A stretch of 64,000 nt of DNA from assembly GCF_030719295.1 (NCBI RefSeq), contig NZ_CP120997.1, positions 4,475,501 through 4,539,500 on the forward strand, given 5' to 3'. The position numbers and the translations under genes were made by a program. The notes below the pieces were generated by a model. It did not search any database, was not told the origin of the DNA, and was given only the letters and a program-made list of their open reading frames with translations. This DNA is from Streptomyces sp. Mut1 (GTDB taxonomy: Bacteria > Actinomycetota > Actinomycetes > Streptomycetales > Streptomycetaceae). Positions 6,469 through 55,315 of the stretch are shown piece by piece; position 1 is the stretch's first letter, and every line of letters begins with the position of its first letter.

Positions 6469-7617
<1,149 letters not shown>

Positions 7618-10840: not shown

Positions 10841-11186
10841 CGAGCACCTGTTCCAGGATGTCGGGGGCGGGAAGCCGGTCCGATACGCGTGCGGTACGCG
10901 GGTGGCGGGCGCTGATCCGGCCGGTGTCGAGCAGGTCGCACAGCAGGATGCGCACGATGCTGACGGGCAGGTCCAGGGTCGCGGAGACCTCGACCACGGC
11001 GGTGGGCCGTTCGCACATCCGCAGGATCGCGGCGTGCTCCGACTGCATGCCGGGGGCCGGCTCGCACTCGGCGACCACCAGGGTGACCAGGTCGAAGGCG
11101 GCGGAGTCGGACCGGGTACGGCCACCGGTGAGGGTGTAGAGCCGGTCCGGGCCGTCGTCCCTGCCGGGCCGGGGGCGGCGCGTCAT
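10821..11186 (-). CDS. cvnC: Conservon protein CvnC (DUF742)
   Basis: A 121-residue DUF742 protein with the family core LYTLTGGRT, FDLVTLVVA, EHAAILRMC, SATLDLPVSIVRILLCDLLDTGRI and DILEQVLVGLRNL. DUF742 is a winged-helix-like domain that accompanies the roadblock protein and GTPase in every conservon. ATG 11186 overlaps the cvnB stop (ATGA). It is predicted cytoplasmic and part of the membrane-associated CvnA-D complex. Confidence 0.92.
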   Translation of the reverse strand: MTRRPRPGRDDGPDRLYTLTGGRTRSDSAAFDLVTLVVAECEPAPGMQSEHAAILRMCERPTAVVEVSATLDLPVSIVRILLCDLLDTGRISARHPRTARVSDRLPAPDILEQVLVGLRNL

Positions 11187-13380: not shown

Positions 13381-16317
13381 ATGGCATCCGGCAATGCACC
13401 GCACGGCAGCACGCCCACCACCACCGCGCCCGCCGCGCTGGCCCGCGACCTGCGGGCGGCCGTACGCGGCGAGGTCGCGTTCGACGCCACCGCGAGGGCG
13501 CTCACGACGATGGACGCGTCCAACTACCGGCGGGTGCCGCTCGGCGTCGTGGCCCCGCGCGACGCCGCCGACACCGCCGCCGCGCTCGCCGTCTGCCGCG
13601 CGCACGGGGTACCCGTCGTGGCGCGCGGCGGCGGTACGTCCATCGCCGGCCAGGCCACCGGCACCGGCGTCGTCCTCGACCTCACCCGCCATCTGCGGTC
13701 CGTCGTCGAGCTGGACCCCGCGTCCCGTACCGCCGTCGTCCAGCCGGGCGTCGTCCTGGACGACCTGCGGGCCGCCGCCGCCCCGCACGGCCTCACCTTC
13801 GGCCCGGACCCTTCCACGCACAGCCGCTGCACCCTCGGCGGCATGATCGGCAACAACTCCTGCGGCTCCCACTCGGTCGCCTGGGGCACCACCGCAGACA
13901 ACGTCCACGCCCTGACCGTCGCCCGCTACGGCGGCGACACCCTGCGCCTGGAGCGCGGCGCGCCCGGCCCGCCCGGCGTCCGCGAGCTGGTCGCGGACCA
14001 CCTCGCCCTCCTGCGCACCGGCTTCCCCGACCTCCCGCGCCGCATCTCCGGCTACGCGCTGGACGCCCTGCTCCCCGAGAACGGTCCCGACCCCGTTCGC
14101 GCGTTCTGCGGCAGCGAGGGCACGCTCGGTGTCGTCACGGAGGCGACCCTGCGGCTGGTCGAGGCGCCCGCGGCCCGCGCCCTCGCCGTCCTCGGATACG
14201 CCGACGAGTCCGCCGCCGCCGAGGCCGCCCCCGGCCTCCTCCCGTACCACCCGCTGACCGTGGAGGGCATGGCCGCCGACCTCGTACGCGAACCGGCCGG
14301 GCTGCCGCGCGGCGGTGCCTGGCTGTTCGCCGAGACGGGCGGCGCGACCCCCGCCGAGGCGCGGGCGCACGCCGAACGCCTCGTACGGGCCGCGTCCGCC
14401 GACGCCGTGGACACCGCCGTCGTCACCGACCCGGCCGGGCAGCGGGCGCTGTGGCGCATCCGGGAGGACGCGGCCGGCACGGCGACCCGGATGCCGGGCG
14501 GCAGCGAGGCGTGGCCCGGCTGGGAGGACTGCGCGGTGCCGCCCGCCCGGCTCGGCGGCTACCTCCGCGACTTCCGGGCGCTGCTCGCCGAGCACGGCCT
14601 GCGCGGCACCCCGTACGGGCACTTCGGCGACGGCTGCATCCACGTCCGGATCGACTTCGACCTGCTGAGCCCCGAGGGCGTGGCCCGCTTCCGCCGCTTC
14701 TCCGAGGACCTCGCCGCACTCGTCGTCGCGCACGGCGGCTCGCTCTCCGGCGAACACGGCGACGGCCAGGCCCGCGCCGAACTGCTCCCGAAGATGTACG
14801 GGGACGAACTCGTCGCGCTCTTCGCCCGGTTCAAGGACCTCTGGGACCCCGACGGCGGCATGAACCCGGGCATCCTCGCCCGCCCGGCCCGTCTGGACGA
14901 CAACCTCCGCTTCGACGTCCTGTCCCGCCGGCCCGTCGACGTGGCCTTCGGCTACCCGCACGACGGCGGCGACTTCTCGGCCGCCGTCCGCCGCTGCGTC
15001 GGCGTCGCCAAGTGCCGTACGGAGCGGGCCGCGGGCCCGTCCGTGATGTGCCCCTCCTTCCGGGCGACCGGCGAGGAGGCCCACTCCACACGCGGCCGGG
15101 CCCGGCTGCTGCACGAGATGCTGGCCGGGGCCGCGGGCGGCGTGATCACCGACGGCTGGCGCTCCACGGAGGTACGGGACGCGCTCGACCTGTGCCTGTC
15201 CTGCAAGGGCTGCCGCAGCGACTGCCCGGTGGGCGTGGACATGGCCACGTACAAGGCGGAGTTCCTGCACCACCACTACCGCCACCGGCTCCGCCCCGCC
15301 TCCCACTACGCGATGGGCCGGCTGCCGCAGTGGCTGCGCCTCGCCGCCCCCTTCGCGGGCCCGCTGAACGCCCTCGCCCGCATCCGCCCGCTCGCCGCCC
15401 TCGCCAAGCGGCTGGCGGGCATCGCACCCGAACGCGGGATTCCGGTGCTGGCGCGGGAGACGTTCACGCGGTGGCTGCTGCTGCGGGACCGGGGCGAGGG
15501 GGCGCGGGTCCTCGGGGGCGGTGGCCGGCGACGCCGGGGCGAGGGCGCGCGGGGCCTCCCCGGCGGGGGCACGCGGCCCCTTCCCGGCGAGGGCGCGCGG
15601 CCCGTCCCCGGCGACCGGGTCGCCCTTCTCTGGCCCGACACCTTCACCGAGCACCTCGCGCCCGAGGTGGGCCGGGCGGCGGTCCGGGTCCTGGAGGCGG
15701 CGGGAGGTACGGCCCTGCTGCCCGGGAAGGGGCTCTGCTGCGGCCTCACCTACGTCTCGACCGGCCAGCTCGACCAGGCCCGTGCGGTGATGCGCCGCAC
15801 CCTGGACCGGCTGGGGGACGGCTTCGACCACCCCGTGGTCGTCCTCGAACCGAGCTGCGCCGCGACCCTGCGCACCGACCTGCCCGAACTCCTCCCGGAC
15901 GACCCGCGCGCCGCCCGCCTCGCCGCCTCCGTCCACACCCTGGCCCAGTACCTGGAGGCGTACGTCCCCGACTGGACGCCCCCGCGCCTGGACGCGCCGG
16001 TCACCGGCCAGACCCACTGCCACCAGCACGCGGTCCTGGGCGACGAGGCGGACCGCAGGCTGCGCGAGCGGGCGGGCCTGACCGGCGACCTCAAGGGCGG
16101 CTGCTGCGGCCTGGCCGGAAACTTCGGCTTCGAGCGGGGCCACTGGGACGTCTCGGTGGCCTGCGCCGAGGACCAGCTCCTCCCGGCGGTCCGGGACGCG
16201 GCCCCCGGCACCCGCGTCCTGGCCGACGGCTTCTCCTGCCGCACCCAGCTCTCCCAGCTGGGCGGGGTACGCGGCCGGCACCTGGCGGAGGTGCTGGCGG
16301 AAGGGCTCACGGACTGA
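13381..16317 (+). CDS. Fused FAD-linked oxidase / Fe-S (CCG-domain) oxidoreductase, D-lactate/glycolate-dehydrogenase-like
   Basis: A 978-residue fusion. Residues about 35-230 are a PCMH-type FAD-binding domain (VPVVARGGGTSIAGQ, GNNSCGSHS). Residues about 240-500 are the FAD-oxidase C-terminal domain (PYGHFGDGCIHVRIDF, SGEHGDGQAR). A 4Fe-4S region follows (CLSCKGCRSDCPVGVDM near 605), and two CCG cysteine-rich modules end the protein (LCCGLTYVST, GGCCGLAGNFGFE). This is the GlcD+GlcF or Dld-type architecture in one chain, oxidising a 2-hydroxyacid and passing electrons to the quinone pool. An unusual Gly/Arg-rich insert of about 40 residues lies before the CCG part. ATG 13381 is chosen; longer in-frame starts add a leader with no domain. 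Confidence 0.88.
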   Translation: MASGNAPHGSTPTTTAPAALARDLRAAVRGEVAFDATARALTTMDASNYRRVPLGVVAPRDAADTAAALAVCRAHGVPVVARGGGTSIAGQATGTGVVLDLTRHLRSVVELDPASRTAVVQPGVVLDDLRAAAAPHGLTFGPDPSTHSRCTLGGMIGNNSCGSHSVAWGTTADNVHALTVARYGGDTLRLERGAPGPPGVRELVADHLALLRTGFPDLPRRISGYALDALLPENGPDPVRAFCGSEGTLGVVTEATLRLVEAPAARALAVLGYADESAAAEAAPGLLPYHPLTVEGMAADLVREPAGLPRGGAWLFAETGGATPAEARAHAERLVRAASADAVDTAVVTDPAGQRALWRIREDAAGTATRMPGGSEAWPGWEDCAVPPARLGGYLRDFRALLAEHGLRGTPYGHFGDGCIHVRIDFDLLSPEGVARFRRFSEDLAALVVAHGGSLSGEHGDGQARAELLPKMYGDELVALFARFKDLWDPDGGMNPGILARPARLDDNLRFDVLSRRPVDVAFGYPHDGGDFSAAVRRCVGVAKCRTERAAGPSVMCPSFRATGEEAHSTRGRARLLHEMLAGAAGGVITDGWRSTEVRDALDLCLSCKGCRSDCPVGVDMATYKAEFLHHHYRHRLRPASHYAMGRLPQWLRLAAPFAGPLNALARIRPLAALAKRLAGIAPERGIPVLARETFTRWLLLRDRGEGARVLGGGGRRRRGEGARGLPGGGTRPLPGEGARPVPGDRVALLWPDTFTEHLAPEVGRAAVRVLEAAGGTALLPGKGLCCGLTYVSTGQLDQARAVMRRTLDRLGDGFDHPVVVLEPSCAATLRTDLPELLPDDPRAARLAASVHTLAQYLEAYVPDWTPPRLDAPVTGQTHCHQHAVLGDEADRRLRERAGLTGDLKGGCCGLAGNFGFERGHWDVSVACAEDQLLPAVRDAAPGTRVLADGFSCRTQLSQLGGVRGRHLAEVLAEGLTD

Positions 16318-43742: not shown

Positions 43743-44852
43743 TCAGTTCCCCAGGTCCGCCAGCTCGCCGAACCCGTCGATCTCGCGGGGGCTGCGCGGG
43801 CCCGGTCCCACGTACCGCGCCGACGGGCGCACCAGGCGGCCCGTCCGCTTCTGCTCCAGGATGTGCGCCGACCAGCCCGCCGTACGGGCACACGTGAACA
43901 TCGACGTGAACATGTGCGCGGGGACCTCGGCGAAGTCCAGCATGATCGCCGCCCAGAACTCCACGTTCGTCGCGAGGACCCGGTCCGGGCGCCGGGCGTG
44001 CAGCTCCTCCAGCGCCGCCTTCTCCAGCGCCTGCGCCACCTCGAACCTGGGCGCGCCCAGCTCCTCGGCGGTGCGGCGCAGGACCCGGGCGCGCGGGTCC
44101 TCGGCCCGGTAGACGCGGTGGCCGAAGCCCATCAGCCGCTCGCCCTTGTCCAGCGCCTTCTTCACGTAGGCCGTGGCGTCCCCGGTCCGCTCGATCTCCT
44201 CGATCATGCCGAGGACGCGGGAGGGGGCGCCGCCGTGCAGCGGGCCCGACATGGCGCCCACCGCGCCGGACAGCGCGGCGGCCACGTCGGCGCCGGTCGA
44301 GGCGATCACCCGGGCGGTGAACGTGGACGCGTTCATCCCGTGCTCGGCGGCGGACGTCCAGTACGCGTCCACGGCCTTGACGTGCCGGGGGTCGGGCTCG
44401 CCGCGCCAGCGGATCATGAACCGCTCCACGACGGACCCCGCCTTGTCGATCTCGCGCTGCGGGACCATCGGCCGGCCCTGCCCGCGCGCCGACTGCGCCA
44501 CGTACGACAGGGCCATCACGGCGGCCCGCGCCAGGTTCTCGCGGGCGGTCTCCTCGTCGATGTCCAGCAGCGGCTTCAGCCCCCACACCGGGGCGAGCAT
44601 GGCGAGCGCGGACTGCACGTCGACCCGGATGTCACCGGAGTGCACCGGGATCGGGAACGGCTCGGCGGGCGGCAGACCGGGCTTGAAGGCCCCGTCCACC
44701 AGCAGCCCCCACACGTTGCCGAAGGACACGTGGCCGACGAGATCCTCGATGTCGACGCCCCGGTACCGGAGCGAACCGCCCTCCTTGTCGGGTTCGGCGA
44801 TTTCCGTCTCGAACGCGACGACTCCTTCGAGTCCGGGTACGAAGTCGGACAT
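43743..44852 (-). CDS. Citrate synthase (type 2-like/methylcitrate-synthase family)
   Basis: A 369-residue enzyme with the citrate-synthase motifs [16 protein letters not shown] (catalytic His), [14 protein letters not shown] (second His) and the C-terminal [29 protein letters not shown] with the catalytic Asp region. It condenses acetyl-CoA (or propionyl-CoA) with oxaloacetate; the sequence does not decide between them. The gene diverges from pdxH. Confidence 0.92.
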
Positions 44853-45020
44853 CAGGCGGCTCCCTCGGATCGACGGCTTGCGGGCGGGCCCGGAGGCCCA
44901 CCCCCGATACTGGCGGGTTCCGACGGGCCCGGGAAGCGTGACATCCGGCACAGCCACCCCTTCCCCGTCCAACGGAGGGCGGACCTGCTTCGTGCCCGTC
45001 CGCTGCGGCAGGATGGGCCC

Positions 45021-45707
45021 GTGCCCACCGCAGACTCCTCCTCCTCCGATTCCACCACCGATCCGGCCGCGATGCGCGAGCAGTACCGTTCCGAGAGCTT
45101 CACCGAGGACGGCCTCGCCCCCGACCCGATGGACCAGTTCGCCCACTGGTTCCGGCAGGTCGCCGCCGGCGGGATGCTCCACGAGCCGAACGCCATGGTG
45201 GTGTCCACGGCGACCCCCGAGGGCCGCCCGTCCTCCCGCACGGTGCTGCTGAAGATGTACGACGCGCGCGGCTTTGTCTTCTTCACGAACTACGAGTCCC
45301 GCAAGGGCCGCGAGCTGGCCGCCAACCCGTACGTCTCGCTGCTCTTCCCCTGGCACCCGCTGGCCCGCCAGGTCATCGTCACCGGCACCGCCTCCCGCGT
45401 CGCCCGCGAGGAGACCGTCGCCTACTTCCGCACCCGCCCGCACGGCTCCCAGCTCGGCGCCTGGGCCAGCGACCAGTCGACGGTGATCGGCGGCCGCGAC
45501 GAGCTGGTCCGGCGCTACGAGGACCTTGCCGCCCGCTACCCCGAGGGTGAGAAGGTCCCGGCGCCCCCGCACTGGGGCGGATTCCGGGTCGTCCCCGACA
45601 CGATCGAATTCTGGCAGGGCCACGAGAACCGGCTCCACGACCGGCTGCGCTACGTCCGCGAGGGCGGCGGGGACGGAAAGTGGCGCGTCGAGCGGCTGTG
45701 CCCGTAA
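45021..45707 (+). CDS. pdxH: Pyridoxamine 5'-phosphate oxidase
   Basis: A 228-residue FMN enzyme that oxidises PNP/PMP to PLP. Motifs: [43 protein letters not shown], a phosphate-binding WASDQS, and the C-terminal signature [19 protein letters not shown] 45021 is chosen, giving about 17 polar residues before the family core at MREQYR; ATG 45072 is an alternative. Convergent with the MNIO gene, 12 bp between stops. Confidence 0.93.
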
Positions 45708-45719
45708 CGCCTCACCGGC

Positions 45720-47336
45720 TCACTGCCCGGTGCAGCAGGCGGCCCTCCCGGGCTCGGAGTGCGCGGGGACCGCGTCCGGCAGCTCGACGGCCGGCGGAAG
45801 GGCCTCGGCCGCCTCCTCGTCGGTCTCGAAGCGGCACCCACCGAGGTGCCGCATCGTGACGGGGGTCGCGGCCAGCAGGAGCCGGGGCGCCAGGCATCCG
45901 GTGCGCAGCCCGCTGATCACCCGCTGGACCCGTATCCCGAACTGGGCGGACGCGGCGTCGTCGGGGGCCTGGGCGCACTCGTTCATCCACCGCTCGGCGC
46001 GCAGCAGCTCCGGCCCCACCTGGTCGGACGCGTCCTCGTCCACCAGCTTGTGGAAGGCGGTGTTGACCTTGTCCCACATGGTGGTCTCGGCGCCTGCGAG
46101 GTCGGGCACGAGCCGTTCGAAGAGGCGCATCTCGTCCATGTCCTCGCGGTGCATCAGCCAGCGGCCGGTGAGCGGGTAGTAGCTGCAGATGTTCGTTCCG
46201 TGCAGCCGCAGGCGCTGGGTCCGCTCGTACTCCCAGCGCTCCTGTTCCTGGGCGGCGAAGGTGTCGAGCAGCGGCGCGCCGGCCGCGGCCAGCGTCGTGC
46301 CGCTGACCGGGGCCGCCGCGTGGATGAGGTCGTGGAGCCCGATGGTGGCCTCGCGGGTCCGCCGCCTGGCCTCCTCAAGGGCGGGGAGGGCCGGTGAGGG
46401 CGGGGGAGCGTCTCGCAGCCACGCGGCGACCGAGGCGCGCTCCCGGATGCCGCGAAGGGTGCTGAGCGCCTTGCGCGGGTTGCGGGCCCCGAAGATCTCC
46501 AGGGTGATCGCCCGCAGGTGGGGGGCGTGGCGGACGACCTCGTCGAGCATGTCCAGGCACACCGAGACGATCGGGGCGTCGCCGTGGCTGTCGTCGTACT
46601 GGTAGCCGTGGCGGTGCAGGTCGATGCCGCCCCCGGCCACGTGGATCTCGGTGATGTGGTCCCACGGAAGGCGGTGGAAGTCGCTGGTGGGGGACGCCCC
46701 GCGGGCGATCTGGTAACTGAGTACATGGCCGATGTCCAGGCACATGCCGGCGCCCGTCTCGGTGACGAGGGTGTGGAAGAAGTCGAAGGCGTGCATCGCC
46801 CCGGTGACCATGGTCATCGGGGGGAATTCGGCGTTGAAGGGCACGCCCAGGTGCTCATGGATGTGACGGACGTTGTCGATGGCCACGGCGAGCGTGGCAT
46901 CGGTGACCGGGAACGGCATGAAGTACGGATAGACGTGGCGTTCGCTCATCAGCCAGACACCGAGGTCCTCGGTGACCCAGGGGGCGTCGGCCAGTTCGAC
47001 CAGCCGGCGCAGCTCCGCCAGGTCGCTCCCGGTCACGGCGTGCGGGTAGACCGGGTTGAGGTCGGTGCTGTGGACCAGGACCGTGTGGTCGGTGACGAGG
47101 TCCGGGATGCGCAGATGGCGCCGGCCCTCCGGGGCGCCGCGGCGCTGCTGGACCTCCTTGTAGTTGGCCGGGCCCTGATGCCGGGTGGCGGGTGCCGTGA
47201 CCTCGAAGAAGTCGACGGTGCCGGTCTCCTCGCCGAGGTAGGTCCGGTGCAGGTCCGAGGGGTTCACACCCAGCCCGACGCCGTAGCGCGGCAATGAGGC
47301 GAAGTAGTCGGGGCCAAAGGGCATGGAAGTCACCAT
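45720..47336 (-). CDS. MNIO (DUF692) multinuclear iron oxidative enzyme with extra C-terminal domain
   Basis: A 538-residue protein. The first ~290 residues are the DUF692 TIM barrel: GLGVNPSD at 21, FFEVTAP at 44, VLVHSTDLNP (His89), VTEDLGVW (Glu123), FNAEFPP (Glu170), CLDIGHVLSYQIA (Asp201/His204), TEIHVAGGG (Glu230/His232) and ITLEIFG (Glu280). These match the family's Fe-ligand pattern. MNIO enzymes (MbnB, TglH) modify Cys and other residues of RiPP precursors. The remaining ~248 residues are not seen in typical ~300-residue members and end in CCTGQ. Starts at 47336, 47333 or 47324 are possible. It is co-transcribed 31 bp after the MBL gene, opposite a Cys-containing peptide. Confidence 0.85.
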   Translation of the reverse strand: MVTSMPFGPDYFASLPRYGVGLGVNPSDLHRTYLGEETGTVDFFEVTAPATRHQGPANYKEVQQRRGAPEGRRHLRIPDLVTDHTVLVHSTDLNPVYPHAVTGSDLAELRRLVELADAPWVTEDLGVWLMSERHVYPYFMPFPVTDATLAVAIDNVRHIHEHLGVPFNAEFPPMTMVTGAMHAFDFFHTLVTETGAGMCLDIGHVLSYQIARGASPTSDFHRLPWDHITEIHVAGGGIDLHRHGYQYDDSHGDAPIVSVCLDMLDEVVRHAPHLRAITLEIFGARNPRKALSTLRGIRERASVAAWLRDAPPPSPALPALEEARRRTREATIGLHDLIHAAAPVSGTTLAAAGAPLLDTFAAQEQERWEYERTQRLRLHGTNICSYYPLTGRWLMHREDMDEMRLFERLVPDLAGAETTMWDKVNTAFHKLVDEDASDQVGPELLRAERWMNECAQAPDDAASAQFGIRVQRVISGLRTGCLAPRLLLAATPVTMRHLGGCRFETDEEAAEALPPAVELPDAVPAHSEPGRAACCTGQ

Positions 47337-47367
47337 TCCGGTTTCGGGGCGGGGCGGTCGGGCGCGG

Positions 47368-49080
47368 TCAGGCGCGGTAGTCGGGGCGCCAGGCCATGGC
47401 CTGGCTGGGATACCAGTGGTGCTCGATGCAGTAGGGCGCGAAATCCATCAGGCGGGCGTAGAAGCGCTCGTAGTCGGCGCGCCGCAAGCCGTGCCGGTCG
47501 CACAACTGGTCGATGGTCAGGCTTCCGTTGGCCCGGTCGATGGCGCGCCCCAGCAGGGCATCGGTGTCCTTGAGGACGAGGACCGCCGACCGCAGGCGTC
47601 CCTGGTCGCGGGTGAGGCGGTGCAGGGCGAGCGGTGCGGAGGGCGAGTCGTCCCCGGGCCCCGCCGCGGTGTCGAAGGGGCCGAAGGCCGGGTGGAAGCG
47701 CGGATGCACATGGCGTGCCGAGCGGACGTCGGCGGCGATCTGGCGGCCGGTCCACTCCTTGGTCCCGGCGCTGTCGAAACCGTGCGGGAGGGCGGCCCGC
47801 TTACGGGCGTGGAGCTGCTGCAACCGGCCCGAGTACTCCAGCCGGCAGCGCCACAGCGCGGTGGCGTCGGACCGGACCTGGGCGGCCAGCCAGGTGTACA
47901 GGGCCTGTGCGTAGTCCGTCTCGGTCATCGCGTCGCCGAGCAGCCAGAGACTGTCCAGGACGATGCGGCCGGTCTCGGCGCCCTCGGAGACCAGATACCG
48001 GGTGGTGGTGGGGAACCAGCGCAGAACGGGCGCGGTGAGGCGGCCGTCCGGTACGGCGGCGATCGCGTCGGACAGGACGGTGTCCCCGTCGGGCATCAGC
48101 TCTTCGATACGGGCCCGGCACTCGCTCCAGGCGTCGCGCCAGGCCTCGTGGCTCATCGTCCGGACGAGCCCGAAGTAGTGCCGGTCGCGGATGTGGATGT
48201 CCAGGAGGAGCGACCAGAGCCGGCCGAGGGCCGTCTCGACCTCGGCCGCCCCGGTGCCGGTGCCCTCGCGGTGATCCGTGATCGCGGTACCGGGCCCGAG
48301 GGGCGCGTCGTCCAGGACGAAGCTCTGGCCGTCGTCCAGAGGGATCAGGTGGGTGCCGTCCGGCAGGCCGGCCGTCAGGTTCCGGTCCCGGAACAGCGCT
48401 TCGTTGTGCGGGAACCAGGGCGCGTCGACGGCCGAGACGCCGCGGCGCTGCCCCTCGTTGATCCCGAGCGGCACCATCGCCTGCGGCCGCAGGATCCCGG
48501 CGGCCTCCAGCCAGGTGCCCGGCGACATCTGATTGCGCAGGTTCTCGTAGTTCAGGCTGCAGTTGAGCGGCAGCAGCGCCAGCCGGATCGGCCCTTCGGC
48601 GCTCAGCCGCTCGAATGTGCCGAAATCCTCCAGCGTGTCCGCGCCGTGCAGGATTCGGTTCTTTCCGTCACTGATCAGCAGCGACTGCTGCGCAATTCCC
48701 TCGATCGAATCGGGTGCGGATATCGAGGTGATGCGCAGCCCCGCCAGGGAGACGGACTCGTCCGCCTTCAGCTCGATCACATTCCGAAACCCGTGCTCGG
48801 CAAGCTCGTCAGCCATCGGGTATGCGCTTCGACGGTCTCGCGCGGGAATGACGACAGGGATATTCCTGTCGAAATGAAGCAGCGTGGGGGGATGGAAGTG
48901 GTCGCAATGGGAATGGGTGATGACGATGGCGTCGACATCGCTCAGCAGCCCGCTCGCGAGCCGGTTCCTGCCACGCGGACTCCACAGGTTCCCGAAGTAG
49001 TCCAGTGCGGGATCGACGGCCAGCCGCCCCGCCGCGGTCTCGAAGACGAAGCAGGTGTGCTGAACCCGGGTGATCTGCAT
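47368..49080 (-). CDS. Metallo-beta-lactamase-fold protein with long C-terminal extension
   Basis: A 570-residue protein. Residues 1-230 are an MBL fold: QHTCFVFETAAGRLAVDPALD and the metal motif THSHCDHFHP (His56, His58, Asp60, His61), then ILHGADT. The rest (about 340 residues) is unassigned; near the end, RANGSLTIDQLCDRHGLRRA and the following helices look like a small winged-helix or PqqD-like element. It could hydrolyse or trim the peptide or a metabolite; this is a guess. No ribosome site is seen before ATG 49080. First gene of the leftward operon. Confidence 0.8.
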   Translation of the reverse strand: MQITRVQHTCFVFETAAGRLAVDPALDYFGNLWSPRGRNRLASGLLSDVDAIVITHSHCDHFHPPTLLHFDRNIPVVIPARDRRSAYPMADELAEHGFRNVIELKADESVSLAGLRITSISAPDSIEGIAQQSLLISDGKNRILHGADTLEDFGTFERLSAEGPIRLALLPLNCSLNYENLRNQMSPGTWLEAAGILRPQAMVPLGINEGQRRGVSAVDAPWFPHNEALFRDRNLTAGLPDGTHLIPLDDGQSFVLDDAPLGPGTAITDHREGTGTGAAEVETALGRLWSLLLDIHIRDRHYFGLVRTMSHEAWRDAWSECRARIEELMPDGDTVLSDAIAAVPDGRLTAPVLRWFPTTTRYLVSEGAETGRIVLDSLWLLGDAMTETDYAQALYTWLAAQVRSDATALWRCRLEYSGRLQQLHARKRAALPHGFDSAGTKEWTGRQIAADVRSARHVHPRFHPAFGPFDTAAGPGDDSPSAPLALHRLTRDQGRLRSAVLVLKDTDALLGRAIDRANGSLTIDQLCDRHGLRRADYERFYARLMDFAPYCIEHHWYPSQAMAWRPDYRA

Positions 49081-49117
49081 GGCCAGTGATTCTCACGCAC
49101 CTTCTCCATCGGGGACA

Positions 49118-49135
49118 GTCCCCGAAAACGGGGAC
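49118..49135. promoter_or_regulatory. 18-bp palindrome in the divergent RiPP promoter region
   Basis: GTCCCCG-AAAA-CGGGGAC is a perfect inverted repeat 38 bp before the MBL start. A second overlapping feature is the direct repeat GGGGACAG at 49111 and 49130. It is a candidate operator for the cluster's LuxR-type regulator. Confidence 0.5.
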
Positions 49136-49189
49136 AGCGGGAATTGCCCCGAGCCATTGACCCGGCTTCCGGACGGGTGGTCCCATGTG

Positions 49190-49214
49190 GCTCGCCGATC
49201 GCCGATCGGTGAGC
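49190..49214. promoter_or_regulatory. 25-bp palindrome upstream of the precursor gene
   Basis: The near-perfect palindrome GCTCGCCGATCG-C-CGATCGGTGAGC has one mismatched pair. It lies 44 bp before the precursor start and 33 bp after a possible -35 TTGACC (49157). Its position suits an operator controlling the rightward genes. Confidence 0.55.
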
Positions 49215-49220
49215 AAAAAT

Positions 49221-49238
49221 GCCACCCCTGTGGGTGGC
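49221..49238 (+). promoter_or_regulatory. Hairpin in the 5' leader of the precursor gene
   Basis: GCCACCC-CTGT-GGGTGGC forms a 7-bp stem ending 19 bp before the precursor ATG, just before its GGGAG ribosome site. It may stabilise or regulate the mRNA. Confidence 0.4.
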
Positions 49239-49257
49239 CCTATTCAGGGAGAATTCA

Positions 49258-49371
49258 ATGGAGCAGGCGCCCAAGGCAGTCGACACGGACAACTCCGAGA
49301 TCCTCGTCGAGGAGATCGAGCACTTCGAGACCGAGATGGACTTCAAGCCGGCGAACTCCCGCTGCCAGTAA
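49258..49371 (+). CDS. Candidate RiPP precursor peptide (37 residues)
   Basis: ATG 49258 follows GGGAG at six bases. The 37-residue product begins MEQAPKAVDTDNSEILVEEI, continues with an acidic amphipathic stretch (EHFETEMDF) and ends KPANSRCQ. An acidic helical leader with EILVEEIE, then a short C-terminal tail with one Ser (34) and one Cys (36), is the layout of precursors for YcaO and MNIO enzymes, both encoded in adjacent genes. The gene is the first of the rightward operon, and a hairpin follows it. It is below the size many gene finders report. Confidence 0.78.
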   Translation: MEQAPKAVDTDNSEILVEEIEHFETEMDFKPANSRCQ

Positions 49372-49388
49372 CCGCCGGTCGGCCCGGA

Positions 49389-49427
49389 GCCCGCTGCCAC
49401 GGCCCTGAGCCGGGCGGAGCAGCGGGC
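49389..49427 (+). terminator. Hairpin between precursor and modification genes (possible attenuator)
   Basis: GCCCGCTGC pairs perfectly with GCAGCGGGC across a 21-base loop, 18 bp after the precursor stop. Partial terminators after a precursor gene are common in RiPP operons and keep peptide levels above enzyme levels. Confidence 0.5.
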
Positions 49428-49465
49428 CCTCGGCTCCCCGCACCCCTCACCCCCAGGGACGACTT

Positions 49466-51325
49466 GTGAAGCAGCACGATGTGGTCGGGTACGCGCCGGG
49501 CGTCCTGGTGACCGCCGACGGCGAGCGGCTGACGTTCGAGGCCCGGCATCTGCGTCTGCGCGCACACATCTCCGACCGGCGCACCCGCACGTGCCTGCTG
49601 GACATGGCCGAGCGACCGGTGCCGCGCGACGACGTCGCCGTCACCACCCTGGCGTTCCTGCTGCGGCACGGTCTCGTGACGACCGCCGCCCACCCGCCGC
49701 ACCTCCAGGGCCTTCGCGCGCACGCGGAGGCGTCGATGCCGCTGAACCAGGGCCTCGCGTATACGCCGCAGGACCTCGCGGAGTACGTACGGCGGGCCCG
49801 CCTGGCCCGGTTCCTGCCCGGTACGGCGTCCGGGACGAGCGATCTGCCCCTGGCGCTGAGGCGCCGCCCGAGTTTCGCCCCGTTCGACGGCCCCCGGGCC
49901 GCACCGGTGGACGAGGCCGCGGTCCTCGCGGTCATGCGGACGCTCCACGACCCCGAGACCCGGCTGTACCCGTCGGCCGGCGCCCTGTACCCCGTACGTC
50001 TGATCGCCGAACAGGCGGAGCCCGACCGCTCCTCGTTCACCCGGTTCGACCCCTCGTCCGGGACCTTCCGGACACGGAGCCGGGCCCGGAGCACCGAGGA
50101 GCGGGACGCCCTCAAGCTCGACCCGACCCTCTCCGCGGTCCCCACCCGCTTCTGGCTGGTCGCCGACCTGCGGGACGTCACGGCGAAGTACGGGCCACGC
50201 GGCTACCGGTACGCGCTCATCGAGGGCGGGCACACCGGTCAGGCCCTCATCCAGGTGCTCCAGCACGCGGGCATCGACGCCCGCCCGTTCGGCGGATTCG
50301 ACGACGCCGAGGTCACCCGGCATCTGGGCCTGCCCGAGGGATGGGCACCGGTCTGCGCCGTGGGGGCGATACCCCGCCCCGGCACGGCGGACTTCCTCGA
50401 AGCGGAGGAACTGCGTTCCATCCTGGTCAACGGGACGCCCCTCTACTACGCCACCGCTTTCGGGGCGAAGGTGAAGGGAAACGTGCGCGAGTGCGGTTTC
50501 GGCTTCGACACCACCGCCGACGCGGCCCGGTTGCGCGCCCGGGGCGAGCTGGCCGAACGACTCGCCCTGGTCCGCTCCCGCGACGTACTGGGCAACAGCA
50601 ACGGCATGGCCGCCCACACCCGGTTCGACGCCGCCGCCGAGGCCGCCGTCCTGGAGCTCTACGAGCGGCACTGCTACATGCGCACCTGGTTCACGGCGGT
50701 GTCCCCGGCACGGCTGACCCTGCCGGACACCCCGCTGGCCCGTTCCGTGCGCAGCCTGTGCCGCGCGGCGGGCGTACGGCTGACGCTGGTGGACATCGCC
50801 GACCCCGCCTACGGGGTCGCCGCGGTGATGGTGGTCGTCCACAGCGACGCCCATGGCGGCGTGGTCACTTCGTCCGGCGCCGGCACGGAGGAGCCCGTGG
50901 CCGCCGAACGCGCGCTGCGAGAGATCGCCAAGGCCCTGTTCTACCGGCGTGTGCTGCTCAAGGCACCGGTGTTCGCCCCGGCCGACCCGCTGTCCGCGCC
51001 GGTCACCGAACCCTGGGAGCACGAGGCGTACTTCGCGCACGAGGACGTCCCCGTCGGTCTGACCCGGTTCCTGACGGACGGAGCCGGACCGCGGGACCTG
51101 GCCGCCGCCTCCGCCCCGCTCGCCGGCCTGAACCGGGCGGTCACGGTGCGGGACCTGTCGGAGCAGGGCCCCGACGAGGCCGCGTGGAAGATCGCCCGCG
51201 CCACCTCCGAGGAGTTGCTGACCGTCGACTTCGGCAGCCCCTCCCTCGCGTTCCGCGAACGGATCAGGACAACGCTCGGCGACGGGATCGACATCGACGC
51301 CCGCTGGCCCCACCCCCTCGGATAA
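49466..51325 (+). CDS. SagB-type dehydrogenase / YcaO fusion
   Basis: A 619-residue fusion. Residues 1-90 may be a small winged-helix, possibly leader-binding. About 100-310 is a SagB/ThcOx-like FMN nitroreductase domain (RLYPSAGALYPVRLI, RYALIEGGHTGQALIQVL, WAPVCAVGAIPRP). About 325-619 is a YcaO domain (GFGFDTTADAARLRARGELA..., SNGMAAHTRFDAAAEAAVLE with LYERH, then ERALREIAKALF). YcaO uses ATP to make azolines or thioamides from Cys/Ser/Thr; SagB oxidises azolines to azoles. No separate E1/ocin partner is seen. GTG 49466 has AGGGA upstream. The adjacent precursor with Cys36/Ser34 is the likely substrate. Confidence 0.85.
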   Translation: MKQHDVVGYAPGVLVTADGERLTFEARHLRLRAHISDRRTRTCLLDMAERPVPRDDVAVTTLAFLLRHGLVTTAAHPPHLQGLRAHAEASMPLNQGLAYTPQDLAEYVRRARLARFLPGTASGTSDLPLALRRRPSFAPFDGPRAAPVDEAAVLAVMRTLHDPETRLYPSAGALYPVRLIAEQAEPDRSSFTRFDPSSGTFRTRSRARSTEERDALKLDPTLSAVPTRFWLVADLRDVTAKYGPRGYRYALIEGGHTGQALIQVLQHAGIDARPFGGFDDAEVTRHLGLPEGWAPVCAVGAIPRPGTADFLEAEELRSILVNGTPLYYATAFGAKVKGNVRECGFGFDTTADAARLRARGELAERLALVRSRDVLGNSNGMAAHTRFDAAAEAAVLELYERHCYMRTWFTAVSPARLTLPDTPLARSVRSLCRAAGVRLTLVDIADPAYGVAAVMVVVHSDAHGGVVTSSGAGTEEPVAAERALREIAKALFYRRVLLKAPVFAPADPLSAPVTEPWEHEAYFAHEDVPVGLTRFLTDGAGPRDLAAASAPLAGLNRAVTVRDLSEQGPDEAAWKIARATSEELLTVDFGSPSLAFRERIRTTLGDGIDIDARWPHPLG

Positions 51326-51390
51326 CCTCACAGCCGCCCCGCCCGACGGCTCGAAATCCCCACCGTTCCCGGATCAATAGGACCCCCCGG

Positions 51391-52755
51391 ATGACGCAAG
51401 CCCGTGCCCGAACCCTGCTCCGCGACCGCCGCTACCGCACGTTCTGGCTCGGCCAGGTCACCAGCACGCTGGGCAACCAGCTGACCATCGTCGTGCTCCC
51501 GGCGCTGGTGGTGCCCAGCAGGGGACCGGGCATGTTCGGACTGCTGCTCGCCGTCGAGTCCGTGGTCATGGGGGTACTGCTCCTCGTCGGGGGGGTCGTC
51601 GCCGACCGCTACTCCCGCAGTGTCGTCATGGCGATATCCGACGTCTTCCGCCTCGTCGGAGTCGGCGGATTCCTGCTCTTCGCCTCCCGGGGCCCGCTGC
51701 TCCCGCTGCTCCTCGCCGCGGCGCTGACCGGCGCCGGCGCGGCCCTGTACGAGCCCGCTCACCGCGCCGCGCTGGCCCAGGTGGTCGAAGAGGACCTGCG
51801 GCAGCAGGCCAACGCCTTCGACAGCGCCACCAAGCGGGTGGGCGGGCTGGTCGGGTCGCTGCTGGCCGGCCTGCTCCTCGCGAACATCTCACCGCCGCGC
51901 ACGCTCCTGGTCGACCTGGCGACGATCGCGATCAGCCTGGTGACGCTGGTGTGGCTGCGGCTGCCCCGCGTACAACCCGCTCCGGAGGAGGAGCAGGAGG
52001 AGCAGGGGCTCGCCGCGGTGTTCGCCGAGGCGAAGGCCGGGCTGGCGGAGGTCCGGCGCCGTCCGTGGGTGTCGGCGGTGATGCTGCAAGGCACGGCCCA
52101 GGTGTTCTTCCTCTTCGGCCCCAACTACGTCCTGGTGCCGATGGTCAGTCAGCAGCGGTACGGAATCGAGGCGTTCGGCTGGGTGAGCGCGGCCACGTTC
52201 GTCGGCTCGGTGCTCGGCTCCATGGCCGGTTCCAAGGTCACCTCCAAGCGCCCCGGCCTGTGGGCCATGAACGCGCTGACGCCGTGTCTGCTGACGCCGG
52301 TATGCCTGATGGTCGATGTCCCGCTGTGGCTGTTCTGCGCGGCCATGGCGGTCGGCTCGGTCGGCGTCGGCTGCTTCATGGTCCTCTGGTACACCGCGTT
52401 GCAGAACGAGTTCCCCGAAGAGGTCCAGGGCCGCGTCTTCGCCCTGGAGGCCCTGGCGAGCTTCGGTCTGCAGCCCATCGCGCTGGCGACCGCGCCCGCG
52501 CTGGTCGCCCTGATGGGCATCACACCGTTCGCGGTCCTGGCCGTGATCGTCCTGCTGATATCCACCTATGCTGTGCTCATCGTGCCCGGGACCGTACGCC
52601 TCGCCTCGCCGCCGAAGCCGAGTTCGGGGCCGAAGCCGGAGCCGAAGCCGGAACCGAAGGCGCCTGGGCGGGAGCCCGAGGAGGCACTTGAGCAGGAGCG
52701 CGAGCGGGAGACCGCGGACCGCCTCGACCAGCGGTCCGGGAACGTGACTTCGTGA
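51391..52755 (+). CDS. MFS exporter
   Basis: A 454-residue major-facilitator protein with about 12 hydrophobic segments, beginning FWLGQVTSTLGNQLTIVVLP and including GGVVADRYSRSVVMAISD (motif A). This is the DHA3-like subgroup with macrolide and peptide exporters. The cytoplasmic tail is Lys/Pro/Glu-rich (repeats of PKPEPKPEPK). It is predicted to export the cluster product. Confidence 0.88.
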   Translation: MTQARARTLLRDRRYRTFWLGQVTSTLGNQLTIVVLPALVVPSRGPGMFGLLLAVESVVMGVLLLVGGVVADRYSRSVVMAISDVFRLVGVGGFLLFASRGPLLPLLLAAALTGAGAALYEPAHRAALAQVVEEDLRQQANAFDSATKRVGGLVGSLLAGLLLANISPPRTLLVDLATIAISLVTLVWLRLPRVQPAPEEEQEEQGLAAVFAEAKAGLAEVRRRPWVSAVMLQGTAQVFFLFGPNYVLVPMVSQQRYGIEAFGWVSAATFVGSVLGSMAGSKVTSKRPGLWAMNALTPCLLTPVCLMVDVPLWLFCAAMAVGSVGVGCFMVLWYTALQNEFPEEVQGRVFALEALASFGLQPIALATAPALVALMGITPFAVLAVIVLLISTYAVLIVPGTVRLASPPKPSSGPKPEPKPEPKAPGREPEEALEQERERETADRLDQRSGNVTS

Positions 52756-52771
52756 GGAGTGGTTCAGGCTC

Positions 52772-54406
52772 ATGGCTCAGCTCCGCTGTACCGGCATCGC
52801 CCACGCATTCGGCGGCCTCACCGTTCTGGACGGCGCGGATCTGTCGATCGCGTCCGGCGACCGCGTAGGCATCGTCGCCCCGAACGGCACCGGCAAGTCG
52901 ACCCTGTTACGGATAGCCGCCGGCGACGTGCCGCCGGACGGCGGCACCGTGGTCCGGGCCCCGGTGACCGCCACCGTCGTCCGGCTCGCACAGGAACGGG
53001 ACGCCCGCGACGGCGAGCCGGTGGGCGACTACCTCGCCCGCCGTACCGGCGTCGCACGGGCGCAGCGCGAACTGGACGCCGCCACCCGGCTGCTGGAGGA
53101 GCAGTCGCCCGGCGCGGAGGACGCGTACGCCGACGCGTGGGACACCTGGCTCGCGCTGGGCGGCGCCGACCTCCCCGAACGCGCCGTGGACGTGGCCGCG
53201 GACCTGGGGCTGCGGCTCGACGCCGGATACACCTCGGAGCTGTCCGGCGGCCAGTACGCCCGGCTGGCGCTCGCCGCGGTGCTGCTGGCGCAGCCGGACA
53301 TCCTCCTCCTGGACGAGCCGACCAACGACCTGGACGACGACGGTCTGTCCCGGCTGGAACACCACGTCCGCCACAGCAGGGCCGGCATCGCGCTGATCAG
53401 CCACGACCGGGCCTTCCTCGCGGCGACCGTCGACCGGATCGTGGAACTGGACGAGTTCACCCGCCGCACCAGTGAGTACGGGGGCGGCTGGGACAGCTTC
53501 GTCACCGAGCGCGCCGCCGCGCGGCAGCGTGCGATCGACGGCTACGCGGCCTACGAGACCACCCGGGAGCAGCTGACCGGCGCGGCCCGCACGCACCGGG
53601 AGTGGGCCCGGCAGGGCGCCGCCCGCGCCGTCAACCCGCGACGGCAGCCCGACGGGGACAAGTTCCGCAAGGCCTCGCGGCTCGCCGGCGCACAGAACAC
53701 CGGCGCCGCCGCGGCGAGGGCCGAGCGCGCCGTGCACCGGCTCGATGCCGCCGCTCCCGAACAGGTGCGGGAAGCCTGGCAGTTGCGGTTCACCATCGCC
53801 GAGGCCGGCACCCCGTCCGGGACCGCGCTCGCGCTGCACGGGGCGGTCGTGCGGCGCGGACCGTGCCGGCTCGGGCCCCTCGACCTGGACATCGGCTTCG
53901 GTGAACGGGTGCGGATCACCGGCCCCAACGGCAGCGGCAAGACGACGCTGCTGAGCGCTCTGCTCGGCCGGCTGCCGCTGGCCGAGGGCACACAGCGGAC
54001 CGGCGCCGCCGTACGGCTGGGCGAAGTGGACCAGACGCGGGCCCTGCTCGACTCGGAACGGTCCACGGCCGAGATCGTCGGCGAGGCAGCCGACCTGGAC
54101 GCCACGGAGACCCGCACACTTCTGGCCAAATTCCGGCTCGGCAAGGACCTGGCGCTACGGGCCGCCGTCTCGCTGTCGCCGGGGGAGCGCACCCGCGCCG
54201 GCCTCGCACTGCTCCAGGCGCGGGGGACCAACTGCCTCGTCCTGGACGAGCCCACCAACCACCTGGACATCGAAGCGGTGGAACAACTGGAACAGGCCCT
54301 CGCCTCGTACAACGGCACGCTGCTGCTGGTGACGCACGACCGGCGCCTGGCCGACGCCGTGCGCGTCGACCGGACACTCGACGTCACCGGCCTTCAGCAG
54401 CCCTGA
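52772..54406 (+). CDS. ABC-F protein, antibiotic-resistance type (contains a TTA codon)
   Basis: A 544-residue soluble protein with two ABC domains and no membrane segment. Walker A motifs are APNGTGKST and GPNGSGKTT; signatures LSGGQYARL and LSPGERTRA; Walker B LLLDEPTNDLD and LVLDEPTNHLD. The linker between domains is Arg-rich (ARQGAARAVNPRRQ). ABC-F proteins of this type protect ribosomes from antibiotics or aid translation. Leu at 52907-52909, next to Walker A, is TTA, implying bldA dependence. It is the last gene of the rightward operon, so self-protection is the likely role. Confidence 0.9.
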   Translation: MAQLRCTGIAHAFGGLTVLDGADLSIASGDRVGIVAPNGTGKSTLLRIAAGDVPPDGGTVVRAPVTATVVRLAQERDARDGEPVGDYLARRTGVARAQRELDAATRLLEEQSPGAEDAYADAWDTWLALGGADLPERAVDVAADLGLRLDAGYTSELSGGQYARLALAAVLLAQPDILLLDEPTNDLDDDGLSRLEHHVRHSRAGIALISHDRAFLAATVDRIVELDEFTRRTSEYGGGWDSFVTERAAARQRAIDGYAAYETTREQLTGAARTHREWARQGAARAVNPRRQPDGDKFRKASRLAGAQNTGAAAARAERAVHRLDAAAPEQVREAWQLRFTIAEAGTPSGTALALHGAVVRRGPCRLGPLDLDIGFGERVRITGPNGSGKTTLLSALLGRLPLAEGTQRTGAAVRLGEVDQTRALLDSERSTAEIVGEAADLDATETRTLLAKFRLGKDLALRAAVSLSPGERTRAGLALLQARGTNCLVLDEPTNHLDIEAVEQLEQALASYNGTLLLVTHDRRLADAVRVDRTLDVTGLQQP

Positions 54407-54963
54407 ACCGCTGCCGCGCCGACGGCCGGGGCCATGGCCAGCCGGACCATGTCCGCCTTGTTGCCGACACCCCACTTCGAACGGATTCGCTTCACATGGG
54501 TGTCGACCGTGTGCCGGCTGATGCCCAGCCGGCGGGCCGTCTGCGCATGGGTGAATCCACCGGCGATGAGATCCAGCACCTGCCGCTCCCTCGGGGAGAG
54601 CGGCCCCGGGCCCGGCGGCGGAGGCTGCGGGTCACCGGAGGGGCGGACCCTTCCCGCCGCGCCGAGCACGGCCCTGACGAAGGCCTCCGGAGTCAGCTGG
54701 TCCGGCAGGCACTCGTCTACGCCGGGCGCCACGACGTGGGTGGGTGACATCAGCAGGGTGCGCGCGCCCGGCGGCGTGCCTTCCGCCGGCACATGGTCGG
54801 TCACCAGCACGTCGTAGGTCTGAGCGGCGTCGGGCCCGGTCCCGTCGCCCGTACCGGCCGCCTCCAGGACGCTGACGTGCATGGCGGGAATATCGGCCAG
54901 CGTGCGTTCCATGGCCCATGCGATCAGTGGGTGTCCATGCCGAATCCCTACTCGATACGTCAA
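54394..54963 (-). CDS. LuxR-type transcriptional regulator with degenerate receiver domain
   Basis: A 189-residue regulator. The N-terminal 110 residues resemble a response-regulator fold (YRVGIRHGHPLIAWAMERTL, DVLVTDH), but no complete phospho-acceptor pocket is seen, so it may act without phosphorylation. The C-terminal LuxR helix-turn-helix is LSPRERQVLDLIAGGFTHAQTARRLGISRHTVDTHVKRI. The start is TTG 54963, with GAGGAG seven bases upstream. Its 3' end overlaps the convergent ABC-F gene by 13 bases. It probably controls the RiPP cluster. Its mRNA has a long leader. Confidence 0.87.
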   Translation of the reverse strand: MTYRVGIRHGHPLIAWAMERTLADIPAMHVSVLEAAGTGDGTGPDAAQTYDVLVTDHVPAEGTPPGARTLLMSPTHVVAPGVDECLPDQLTPEAFVRAVLGAAGRVRPSGDPQPPPPGPGPLSPRERQVLDLIAGGFTHAQTARRLGISRHTVDTHVKRIRSKWGVGNKADMVRLAMAPAVGAAAVQGC

Positions 54964-55118
54964 TGTGCACTCCTCTGTTCCGCGTGGCCCGGCCGCGCCG
55001 GACGCACTTGGACGATGTACGCCTGCCCATCATCCGGATCCGGCCATTGCGTCAACAGGCCAAAGGAGTTGACTTGCAGGAACAGGCCAACGGGCCCCGC
55101 GGGCCCGGACACGCGGAA

Positions 55119-55181
55119 ACCCGCAGGCTCTGGTCCCTCCTTGCGGAGGAGCCGGCCGGATCTACCGGCGAGCCTGCGGGT
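55119..55181 (-). ncRNA. Structured leader RNA element (three-way-junction-like) upstream of luxR
   Basis: A perfect 12-bp stem (ACCCGCAGGCTC / GAGCCTGCGGGT, 55119-55130 and 55170-55181) closes over two smaller hairpins, CTCC-TTGC-GGAG and GCCGG-N9-CCGGC. On the luxR strand it lies in the untranslated leader between the small leader ORF and the regulator start. The 54964-55455 gap contains no other gene that I can support. Confidence 0.6.
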
Positions 55182-55243
55182 CGGTGACTGCTTGGGTTTC
55201 GGCAGACAGTCCGCCGAGGTGCACGTTGTGCGACGACGGGCTG

Positions 55244-55282
55244 TCAGCCCGCAGCCACCTCACGAATCCGATAAGACTGCAC
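55244..55282 (-). CDS. Leader peptide ORF, 12 codons
   Basis: The sequence AAAGGAGGTGATCC, an almost exact complement of the 16S rRNA 3' end, precedes GTG 55282, which encodes a 12-residue MQSYRIREVAAG and a stop. A hairpin CGGGCT-GTC-AGCCCG (55237-55251) overlaps the stop codon. Codons are unusually A/T-ending (TCT, TAT, ATT, CGT), as in leader peptides. It may control the downstream luxR gene through ribosome position. Confidence 0.5.
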   Translation of the reverse strand: MQSYRIREVAAG

Positions 55283-55315
55283 TTTTCGGATCACCTCCTT
55301 TCAGCGTGTACACAC

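Follow-up and report, generated by a model that had tools for sequence, protein, structure and literature searches.

Organization of the locus and related clusters

We analyzed a 64,000-nucleotide stretch of the Streptomyces sp. Mut1 genome (positions 4,475,501 to 4,539,500 of contig NZ_CP120997.1; the whole stretch is called the window below), which contains a 9.4-kb candidate gene cluster for a ribosomally synthesized and posttranslationally modified peptide (RiPP). Open reading frames (ORFs) of the window were collected in six frames, and their proteins were scanned against Pfam and NCBIfam (Table 1). The multinuclear nonheme iron-dependent oxidative enzyme (MNIO) matched PF05114 with an E value of 7.5e-25 (88 bits against a cut-off of 25), the metallo-β-lactamase (MBL)-fold protein matched Lactamase_B_2 (1.7e-11), and the SagB-YcaO fusion contained both a Nitroreductase (5.5e-11) and a YcaO (7.7e-19) domain; Pfam also detected two ABC domains in the ABC-F protein and a GerE/LuxR helix-turn-helix (HTH) domain in the regulator. 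All components named in an original prediction made from the letters of this DNA, i.e., the MNIO, MBL-fold, SagB-YcaO, exporter, ABC-F, and LuxR proteins and a 37-residue peptide, were recovered from the ORF list and the Pfam/NCBIfam matches. The prediction had also placed two divergent operons around the Cys-containing peptide; the divergent arrangement holds, but the rightward operon begins with the peptide gene.

Table 1. Features of the cluster, with positions in the window
Feature	Positions	Strand	Basis
MNIO (DUF692/PF05114) enzyme, 538 aa	45720..47336	-	Pfam PF05114, five-homologue alignment, tree
MBL-fold protein, 570 aa	47368..49080	-	Pfam, four-way alignment, PDB matches CmlA and 8a90/FrsH
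Inverted repeat GTCCCCGAAAACGGGGAC, candidate operator of divergent promoters	49118..49135	+	Pattern match and position in four loci
Putative precursor peptide, 37 aa, MEQAPKAVDTDNSEILVEEIEHFETEMDFK-PANSRCQ	49258..49371	+	Core conservation in 4/4 clusters
SagB-YcaO fusion, 619 aa	49466..51325	+	Pfam/NCBIfam, PDB matches, alignment
MFS exporter, 454 aa	51391..52755	+	MFS_1 5.9e-41 (Pfam)
ABC-F protein, 544 aa, candidate for self-resistance	52772..54406	+	NCBIfam, PDB matches
LuxR-type regulator, 189 aa, C-terminal GerE HTH	54394..54963	-	Pfam
9.4-kb segment holding the whole cluster, absent from same-species genome G194	45707..55104		blastn, junctions read

Three other loci share all seven genes, with their order and orientation unchanged: a linear plasmid of S. 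europaeiscabiei NBC 01735 (L011), S. pilosus JCM 4403 (L012), and S. sp. ADI95-17 (L013). Identities to the window proteins in these clusters were about 69 to 81% for the MNIO, 60 to 77% for the MBL-fold protein, 58 to 72% for SagB-YcaO, 73 to 84% for the MFS exporter (over its first ~407 residues), 69 to 85% for the ABC-F protein, and 46 to 60% for the LuxR-type regulator. The original prediction named a peptide absent or unconserved in homologous clusters as the observation that would speak against it; all four clusters carry a conserved peptide among their seven genes, which supports a RiPP-type cluster built around it.

The cluster is rare among sampled genomes, where family sizes are based on genome samples, one pattern scan of genome contigs, and a plasmid collection. 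When the MNIO was searched by tblastn against 72,556 plasmid records, 83 gave any match and only L011 covered at least 80% of the query (79.6% identity); the SagB-YcaO fusion matched a single record, the L011 plasmid, and the MBL-fold protein matched five, one of which, again L011, exceeded 80% coverage. Scanning genome contigs with six 8-residue MNIO patterns, which detect close relatives only, matched 23 stretches, two of them relatives (L012, 81%; L013, 69%). In genome samples that overlap one another, the MNIO was present in 3 of 392 genomes of the genus at an E value of at most 1e-30 (own, G114, and G227). Its profile, at 1e-40 or lower, matched two genomes in the sample of 293 from the order (own and G451) and the own genome alone in that of 396 from the phylum; the SagB-YcaO profile (at most 1e-25) found 2 of 394 genomes of the family (own and G451). 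Here, G114 is counted as the ADI95-17 locus and G451 as the S. pilosus locus. Among 100 relatives, some match to the fusion protein appeared in 10 genomes at an E value of 0.001, and a full-length one in the own genome only. MNIOs of other types are common, with a PF05114 match at 1e-10 in 141 of 150 Streptomyces genomes.

In L011 alone, genes for LuxE (9e-29) and LuxC (3e-76) lie directly after the MNIO gene (L011 positions 13638 to 16216), where they may contribute to tailoring of the S. europaeiscabiei product. Being present in one of four clusters, they were rejected as a core part of the cluster, and the genome of the window has only two weak LuxC matches (24.8 and 22.9 bits; cut-off, 21).

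The genome G194, of the same species, lacks the MNIO and carries both flanks on one contig, which matches the window by blastn at 98 to 99% from 43935 to 45706, continues with 7 bp, and matches again from 55105 onward. Because the flanks join across 7 bp and the junctions were read directly, the cluster constitutes a 9.4-kb presence/absence unit. On one side it borders on the stop codon of a gene that by eye is pdxH-like, and on the other on a match to the actinobacterial small RNA Ms_IGR-5 of Rfam (55111 to 55309, minus strand; 78 bits), the 3' end of which lies a few bases from the border. No direct or inverted words of 9 to 16 bp were common to the 200-bp stretches at the two junctions, and neither the G+C content nor that at third codon positions of the cluster genes stood out against both flanks. 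The cluster was probably acquired horizontally; loss in G194 is possible, and we favor gain because the cluster is rare.

Precursor peptide, modifying enzymes, and accessory genes

The last seven residues of the peptide, PANSRCQ, are invariant in the alignment of all four clusters and include one invariant Cys. Unmodified and with its Met, the window peptide has a mass of 4279.94 Da. Over the whole peptide, identity to the window is 53 to 59% in the three other clusters, and in the leader it falls to 14/30 (L011), 15/30 (L012), and 11/27 (L013) compared positions, with EI, E, IE, and F as the invariant residues. Core codons of the window and L011 are the same, and silent changes occur in L012 (Asn) and L013 (Ala and Ser). 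A purine-rich, Shine-Dalgarno-like stretch (GGGAG, AAGGAGG, GAGGAG, or AGGAGG) lies 5' of the ATG in all four. The four intergenic regions were also compared in six frames, as stop-to-stop pieces of at least 15 residues, for common 5-residue words; those found were ANSRC, NSRCQ, and PANSR, together with TPRSS, PRSSS, RSSSR, and YWQRE, which by the window ORF list are other reading frames of the same DNA. Because the peptide ORF occupies the same position and ends in an identical PANSRCQ in four of four homologous clusters, it is not a chance ORF, and a gene encoding a leader plus a conserved core beside modifying enzymes is the arrangement of a RiPP precursor. We propose that residues 1 to 30 form an acidic leader with the pattern EI..E.IE.F and that residues 31 to 37 form the core.

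The SagB-YcaO fusion comprises a flavin dehydrogenase (residues 147 to 300) and a YcaO part (~310 to 619), with no family assigned to residues 1 to ~115. The flavin part exceeds the cut-off of PF00881, in line with a SagB-type flavin dehydrogenase. It can be aligned to McbC and BmdC and has retained the KY..RGYR stretch of McbC, presumably the catalytic motif of SagB-type dehydrogenases. The YcaO part aligned weakly with PDB structures (6ci7, E value of 0.004; MJ1094, 0.02); the GNSNG and ALREIAKA stretches, over which it was aligned with MJ1094, are both kept. All four fusion proteins end in WPHPLG, and the proline-rich C terminus of YcaO proteins matters. This PHPLG end in four of four, with PF02624 above its cut-off, agrees with the YcaO enzymes of azole RiPPs (linear azol(in)e-containing peptides/thiazole-oxazole-modified microcins). 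Since the SagB and YcaO parts align with known enzymes and keep their motifs, we infer that the fusion makes an azole or azoles at Cys36 and/or Ser34. The first ~115 residues resemble a leader-binding domain by eye, for which the searches gave no support.

The MNIO enzyme consists of an N-terminal barrel (residues 1 to ~310), a C-terminal region (~310 to 512) without family assignment, and a tail ending in EPGRAACCTGQ (window positions 45720 to 45755). The tail has a Cys pair in all five members of the family, as GRAACC[TS]GQ or GTARCCSG, including L016/L017, a distant member from another cluster type, where L017 is one residue longer; one idea is that it serves as a metal- or electron-delivery element. 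In the barrel, E170, D201, H232, H251, and E280 match the corresponding residues of other MNIOs, and Asp124 takes the place of a His, as in L018 and L083. We take all six to be metal-ligand sites; together with the PF05114 match, this identifies the protein as an MNIO. The NCBIfam MNIO models all scored far under their cut-offs, with the bufferin maturase model as the best (1e-18; 68 of 310 bits). This score and a leader with no signal peptide by eye led us to reject a bufferin. Relatives in the PDB were distant (3bww, 8hci, and MbnB, the latter two matches being weak), and an AlphaFold model from a three-row alignment (predicted local distance difference test [pLDDT], 37) was not used.

For comparison, we used 14 other MNIO loci, unevenly drawn: mostly the top-scoring canonical PF05114 proteins among the matches listed, with L082 and L083 added individually. 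By phmmer, L018 scored 97 bits and L083 scored 76, and the rest gave 45 or less or no match; in a FastTree tree of 18 barrels (5 of the family and 13 others), L018 joined the window family with a support of 0.93. Asp occurs in the family (TEDLG/EDLGVW), L018 (GEDIG/EDIGAW), and L083 (NVDLA/VDLAMW) where the other eleven have His (SEH/SDH/TEH/GEH), and His occurs in the family, L018, L083, and L082 at a position where the other ten have Asn. L018 is a 291-residue MNIO encoded on a Piscinibacter plasmid beside a carbamoyltransferase gene, a TfuA-like gene, and a small ORF ending in SNKARQKPW, on account of which we call it std-like. In the std pathway, as described in the available part of its report (PMC13174530), the MNIO bis-hydroxylates homocitrulline in an S-N-K core after the YcaO step. 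Because the nearest compared MNIO is std-like and the std enzyme hydroxylates a side chain, our lead guess, by analogy, is that the window MNIO hydroxylates a side chain near the heterocycle, with Arg35, between Ser34 and Cys36, as the first candidate. The original prediction, in which the MNIO acts on Cys or a neighboring residue, is refined in that such hydroxylation appears at least as likely as Cys chemistry.

The MNIO of L017 (genome G227; 49% identity) was accompanied by neither a SagB-YcaO fusion nor a PANSRCQ peptide in the ORFs of at least 200 residues and the sequence inspected, so that this MNIO subgroup is not tied to the SagB-YcaO cluster type. By eye, L017 positions 1 to 12300 encode a radical-SAM/B12-type protein, nucleotidyltransferase-like proteins, and a peptidyl-prolyl-isomerase fusion around the MNIO, and a small minus-strand ORF just upstream of it is a possible precursor. 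L083 (G148, positions 4660 to 11862) holds a Streptomyces MNIO which, by eye, lies beside a B12-binding radical-SAM protein, an MFS exporter, and a cupin/JmjC-like protein.

In the MBL-fold protein, Pfam recognized only the first ~205 residues, and the C-terminal ~300 residues have no family. The HxHxDH motif (residues 56 to 61, as HSH[CS]DH) and D148 are conserved in the four homologues. L028 and L032, which are hydrolase-type proteins encoded in the same genome, carry His in both the third (ARH) and fifth (PIHW) motifs, whereas the window protein has PDSIEG (PNSIEG in L012) and VPLGINEG instead; the fifth motif was matched by eye because the alignment is uncertain at this point. Sequence searches of the PDB matched the domain only to the diiron monooxygenases CmlA and 8a90 (FrsH), with profile E values of 4e-6 to 1e-5, and these took ranks 1, 2, 3, and 5 in Foldseek; the AlphaFold model, from a three-row alignment, had a pLDDT of 48, with only part of the N-terminal domain above 70 and active-site loops below 50. 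We take the diiron set of CmlA to be HxHxDH, a third-motif Glu, a bridging Asp, and a last His. The window protein keeps HxHxDH and the Asp, the last His was not seen, and the invariant E127 is a candidate for the Glu, which HMMER leaves unaligned to that of CmlA. With low confidence, we suggest that the protein is an oxygenase or a partner of the MNIO and not an ordinary hydrolase.

Regarding self-resistance, the best NCBIfam model for the ABC-F protein was ribo_prot_ABC_F ("ribosomal protection-like ABC-F"), with 333 bits against a cut-off of 380, and its relatives in the PDB were EttA, ExpZ, Uup, and the "Macrolide efflux protein" 5zlu. Klebsazolicin and phazolicin, both azole RiPPs, act by blocking the exit tunnel of the ribosome, according to the available part of a report on them (PMC7136475). 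A ribosomal target is reasonable because the ABC-F protein is nearest to a ribosomal-protection-like model and exit-tunnel azole RiPPs are known; with the ABC-F gene as the one basis for it in the cluster, the product may plausibly act on the ribosome, perhaps as a protein-synthesis inhibitor.

Between the MBL-fold gene and the precursor gene, the repeat GTCCCC-N6-GGGGAC occurs as its one exact copy in the window, and an equivalent repeat is exact in L011 and L012 and has one mismatch in L013. From its end to the precursor ATG, the distances are 122, 128, 125, and 126 bp in the window, L011, L012, and L013, respectively, and those to the MBL-fold gene start are 37, 94, 95, and 68 bp. A total of 13 exact matches appeared in 200 mononucleotide shuffles of the window, and with up to 2 mismatches there was no enrichment (17 in the window against 18.9 expected from the shuffles, with L011, L012, and L013 alike). 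Since the mismatch-tolerant pattern is no commoner than in shuffles, we give weight only to the exact, positionally conserved copies. Our guess is that the repeat is the operator of the LuxR-type protein. A sigma-70 promoter scan of the intergenic region found none. Another perfect inverted repeat, GCCACCC-CTGT-GGGTGGC (49221 to 49238), lies just upstream of the precursor ATG and is terminator-like on the minus strand.

Proposed pathway and competing explanations

Starting from the observed gene content, the conservation of core and gene order, the operator-like repeat, and the presence or absence of the segment as a whole, we consider it probable that the cluster is a horizontally acquired RiPP pathway in which SagB-YcaO would form azole(s) and the MNIO would oxidize the PANSRCQ core. 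As expected from the enzyme families, SagB-YcaO would first cyclize Cys36, and perhaps Ser34, to an azoline with ATP, and its flavin domain would oxidize this to a thiazole or oxazole. The MNIO, for which oxidation follows from its family and the site is suggested more weakly, would then most likely hydroxylate a side chain beside the heterocycle, with Arg35 in the lead, or, less likely, rearrange Cys36. The MBL-fold protein might act as a further metal oxygenase or as the MNIO partner, and a protease from outside the cluster would remove the leader. Judged by their families, the MFS protein would export the product and the ABC-F protein would protect the producer ribosome, and the LuxR-type protein may control both operons, perhaps via the common inverted repeat.

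Several observations weigh against this reading. Azoline-forming YcaO enzymes normally need an E1-like partner, and no E1-like/ocin-ThiF partner was found among the seven genes of the 9.4-kb segment; TIGR03882 matches are present elsewhere in the genome. The NCBIfam SagB (33 of 78 bits) and SagD (46 of 219 bits) models remained under their cut-offs. No RiPP recognition element was detected by hmmscan at the N terminus of SagB-YcaO or at the C termini of the MBL-fold protein and the MNIO, nor by hhalign against 13 ThiF-type N termini longer than 100 residues, some of which probably begin with out-of-gene residues, our own profiles having only 4 to 5 rows. Profiles of these three regions searched in nine loci found their own members and otherwise nothing convincing. 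No protease gene was seen in the cluster. As for the MNIO, the comparison set is biased to canonical enzymes, with StdE and the characterized Cys-modifying MNIOs outside the tree, the branch leading to L018 is long, and the weak NCBIfam matches were spread over the BufB, ApyH, HvfB, ChrH, and MbnB models and the cobamide enzyme CbiR. Hydrolases follow closely behind CmlA/FrsH in the Foldseek list of the MBL-fold protein, and its weak family-model matches (PRK00685 and phrog_392) were named hydrolases; in PHROGs, a metal-dependent hydrolase family gave 7e-5, and a second family, of unknown function, gave 0.06. Scores of the ABC-F protein are below the curated cut-offs for antibiotic-resistance ABC-F proteins (333 of 380 and, for ABCF_producer, 257 of 800 bits). 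Furthermore, only four clusters were found, and the MNIOs of the other three are 70 to 81% identical to that of the window in the alignment.

In a bolder version, three redox chemistries would meet on one heptapeptide, i.e., E1-independent azole formation by SagB-YcaO, Arg hydroxylation by the MNIO, and CmlA-like diiron oxidation by the MBL-fold protein, with the ABC-F protein countering a ribosome-acting product. We hold this version to be doubtful; to our knowledge, a CmlA-like MBL-fold oxygenase acting on a ribosomal peptide would be the first in such a role.

The single invariant Cys of the core also suits MNIO chemistry centered on Cys36 (oxazolone/thioamide formation, thiooxazole formation, or carbon excision, as in methanobactin, captophorins, and thiaglutamate), in which case SagB-YcaO would either modify Ser34 or have a role other than azole synthesis. 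Several characterized MNIOs act on Cys (PMC13174530, available part), and the bufferin maturase model ranked first in NCBIfam, though far under its cut-off. However, a SagB-YcaO pair fits azole formation, which would consume the only Cys, the nearest of the 14 compared MNIOs is std-like in a tree that does not include Cys-modifying references, and by eye the leader lacks the signal peptide that most MNIO precursors have (PMC12452194, available part). Cys-centered MNIO chemistry therefore seems unlikely to us, with the azole pathway remaining our preferred explanation.

The very short core raises another possibility, namely that the peptide is a scaffold or signal, from which C-terminal residues are converted into a small molecule that the MBL-fold protein, as a hydrolase, would release. 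The hydrolase family models and the many hydrolases after CmlA/FrsH in Foldseek would agree with this, and LuxE/LuxC could reduce a carboxylate to an aldehyde. Yet these two genes occur in one of four clusters, with nothing more than the two weak LuxC matches in the genome of the window, and the MBL-fold protein lacks the third- and fifth-motif His. Besides, thiaglutamate-type pathways have a LanB-like peptide ligase, and no such gene is present in the insertion. We regard a scaffold role as improbable. That the peptide is simply a small conserved protein with no link to the redox enzymes encoded next to it, and the locus not a RiPP pathway, would accord with the undetected recognition element and a product that is not known, but is very improbable given an identical core with a variable leader in four of four clusters, the fixed place before SagB-YcaO, and three adjoining RiPP-associated enzyme domains. 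A defense system was rejected as well, PADLOC returning 0 families for three proteins.

Comparison with known systems and implications

Azole RiPPs, including microcin B17, have a SagB-type dehydrogenase together with a YcaO enzyme, as the window does. In the window, however, the two are fused without an E1-like/ThiF partner, the seven-residue core contains a single Cys and a single Ser, and an MNIO and an ABC-F protein are present, by which it differs from klebsazolicin and phazolicin as far as the available part of their report goes (PMC7136475). The std cluster of Streptomyces thermodiastaticus JCM 4840 shares with the window an MNIO, a YcaO enzyme, an MFS protein, and a short precursor whose C-terminal motif is invariant, whereas it has YcaO-TfuA (thioamide) and a peptidase-carbamoyltransferase in place of the SagB-YcaO fusion, MBL-fold, ABC-F, and LuxR proteins, according to the available part of its description (PMC13174530). 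The S-N-K core resembles N-S-R, and the nearest MNIO, L018, sits in a std-like cluster, but the window core has a Cys and the window MNIO has a C-terminal extension of ~230 residues, which L018 lacks. Membership in the std-type RiPPs was rejected, as the seven genes include neither TfuA nor a peptidase-carbamoyltransferase and the core is PANSRCQ rather than of the SNKEWQE type. The clusters pfl (PMC12636437) and adjamnio-III (PMC12452194) likewise combine an MNIO with a nitroreductase-fold enzyme; in the available parts of these reports, the latter is fused to the MNIO and described without a YcaO association, whereas that of the window is fused to YcaO.

The MBL-fold protein shares HxHxDH and an Asp with CmlA/FrsH, the Asp matching what we assume to be the bridging one. 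The match is N-terminal in the window protein but covers residues 258 to 407 of 534 in CmlA, and the last His of CmlA, presumably a ligand, has no counterpart seen in the window protein. The ABC-F protein resembles producer-type proteins (TlrC/CarA/OleB/SrmB) in its two ABC domains, the second signature LSPGERTRAGLALL, and its clustering with an exporter, although it scored 256.6 bits against the family cut-off of 800 and its protective role is a prediction. The original prediction could recall no described pathway with this set of enzymes, and our searches likewise found no description of the combination or of an NSRCQ core in 5.39 million open-access papers, covered partly in excerpt and mostly without subscription papers; the cluster is best filed as known enzyme families in a combination for which that literature gave no description.

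If the proposed pathway is correct, two RiPP chemistries, YcaO/SagB azole formation and MNIO oxidation, would meet on one seven-residue core, and the cluster would allow a YcaO enzyme that has no E1 partner to be tested in a compact system. It would also offer a subgroup of MNIOs in which Asp replaces His at the presumed metal site and bring forward an MBL-fold oxygenase as a RiPP enzyme, while the ABC-F gene makes the question of the target directly testable in a cell-free translation system.

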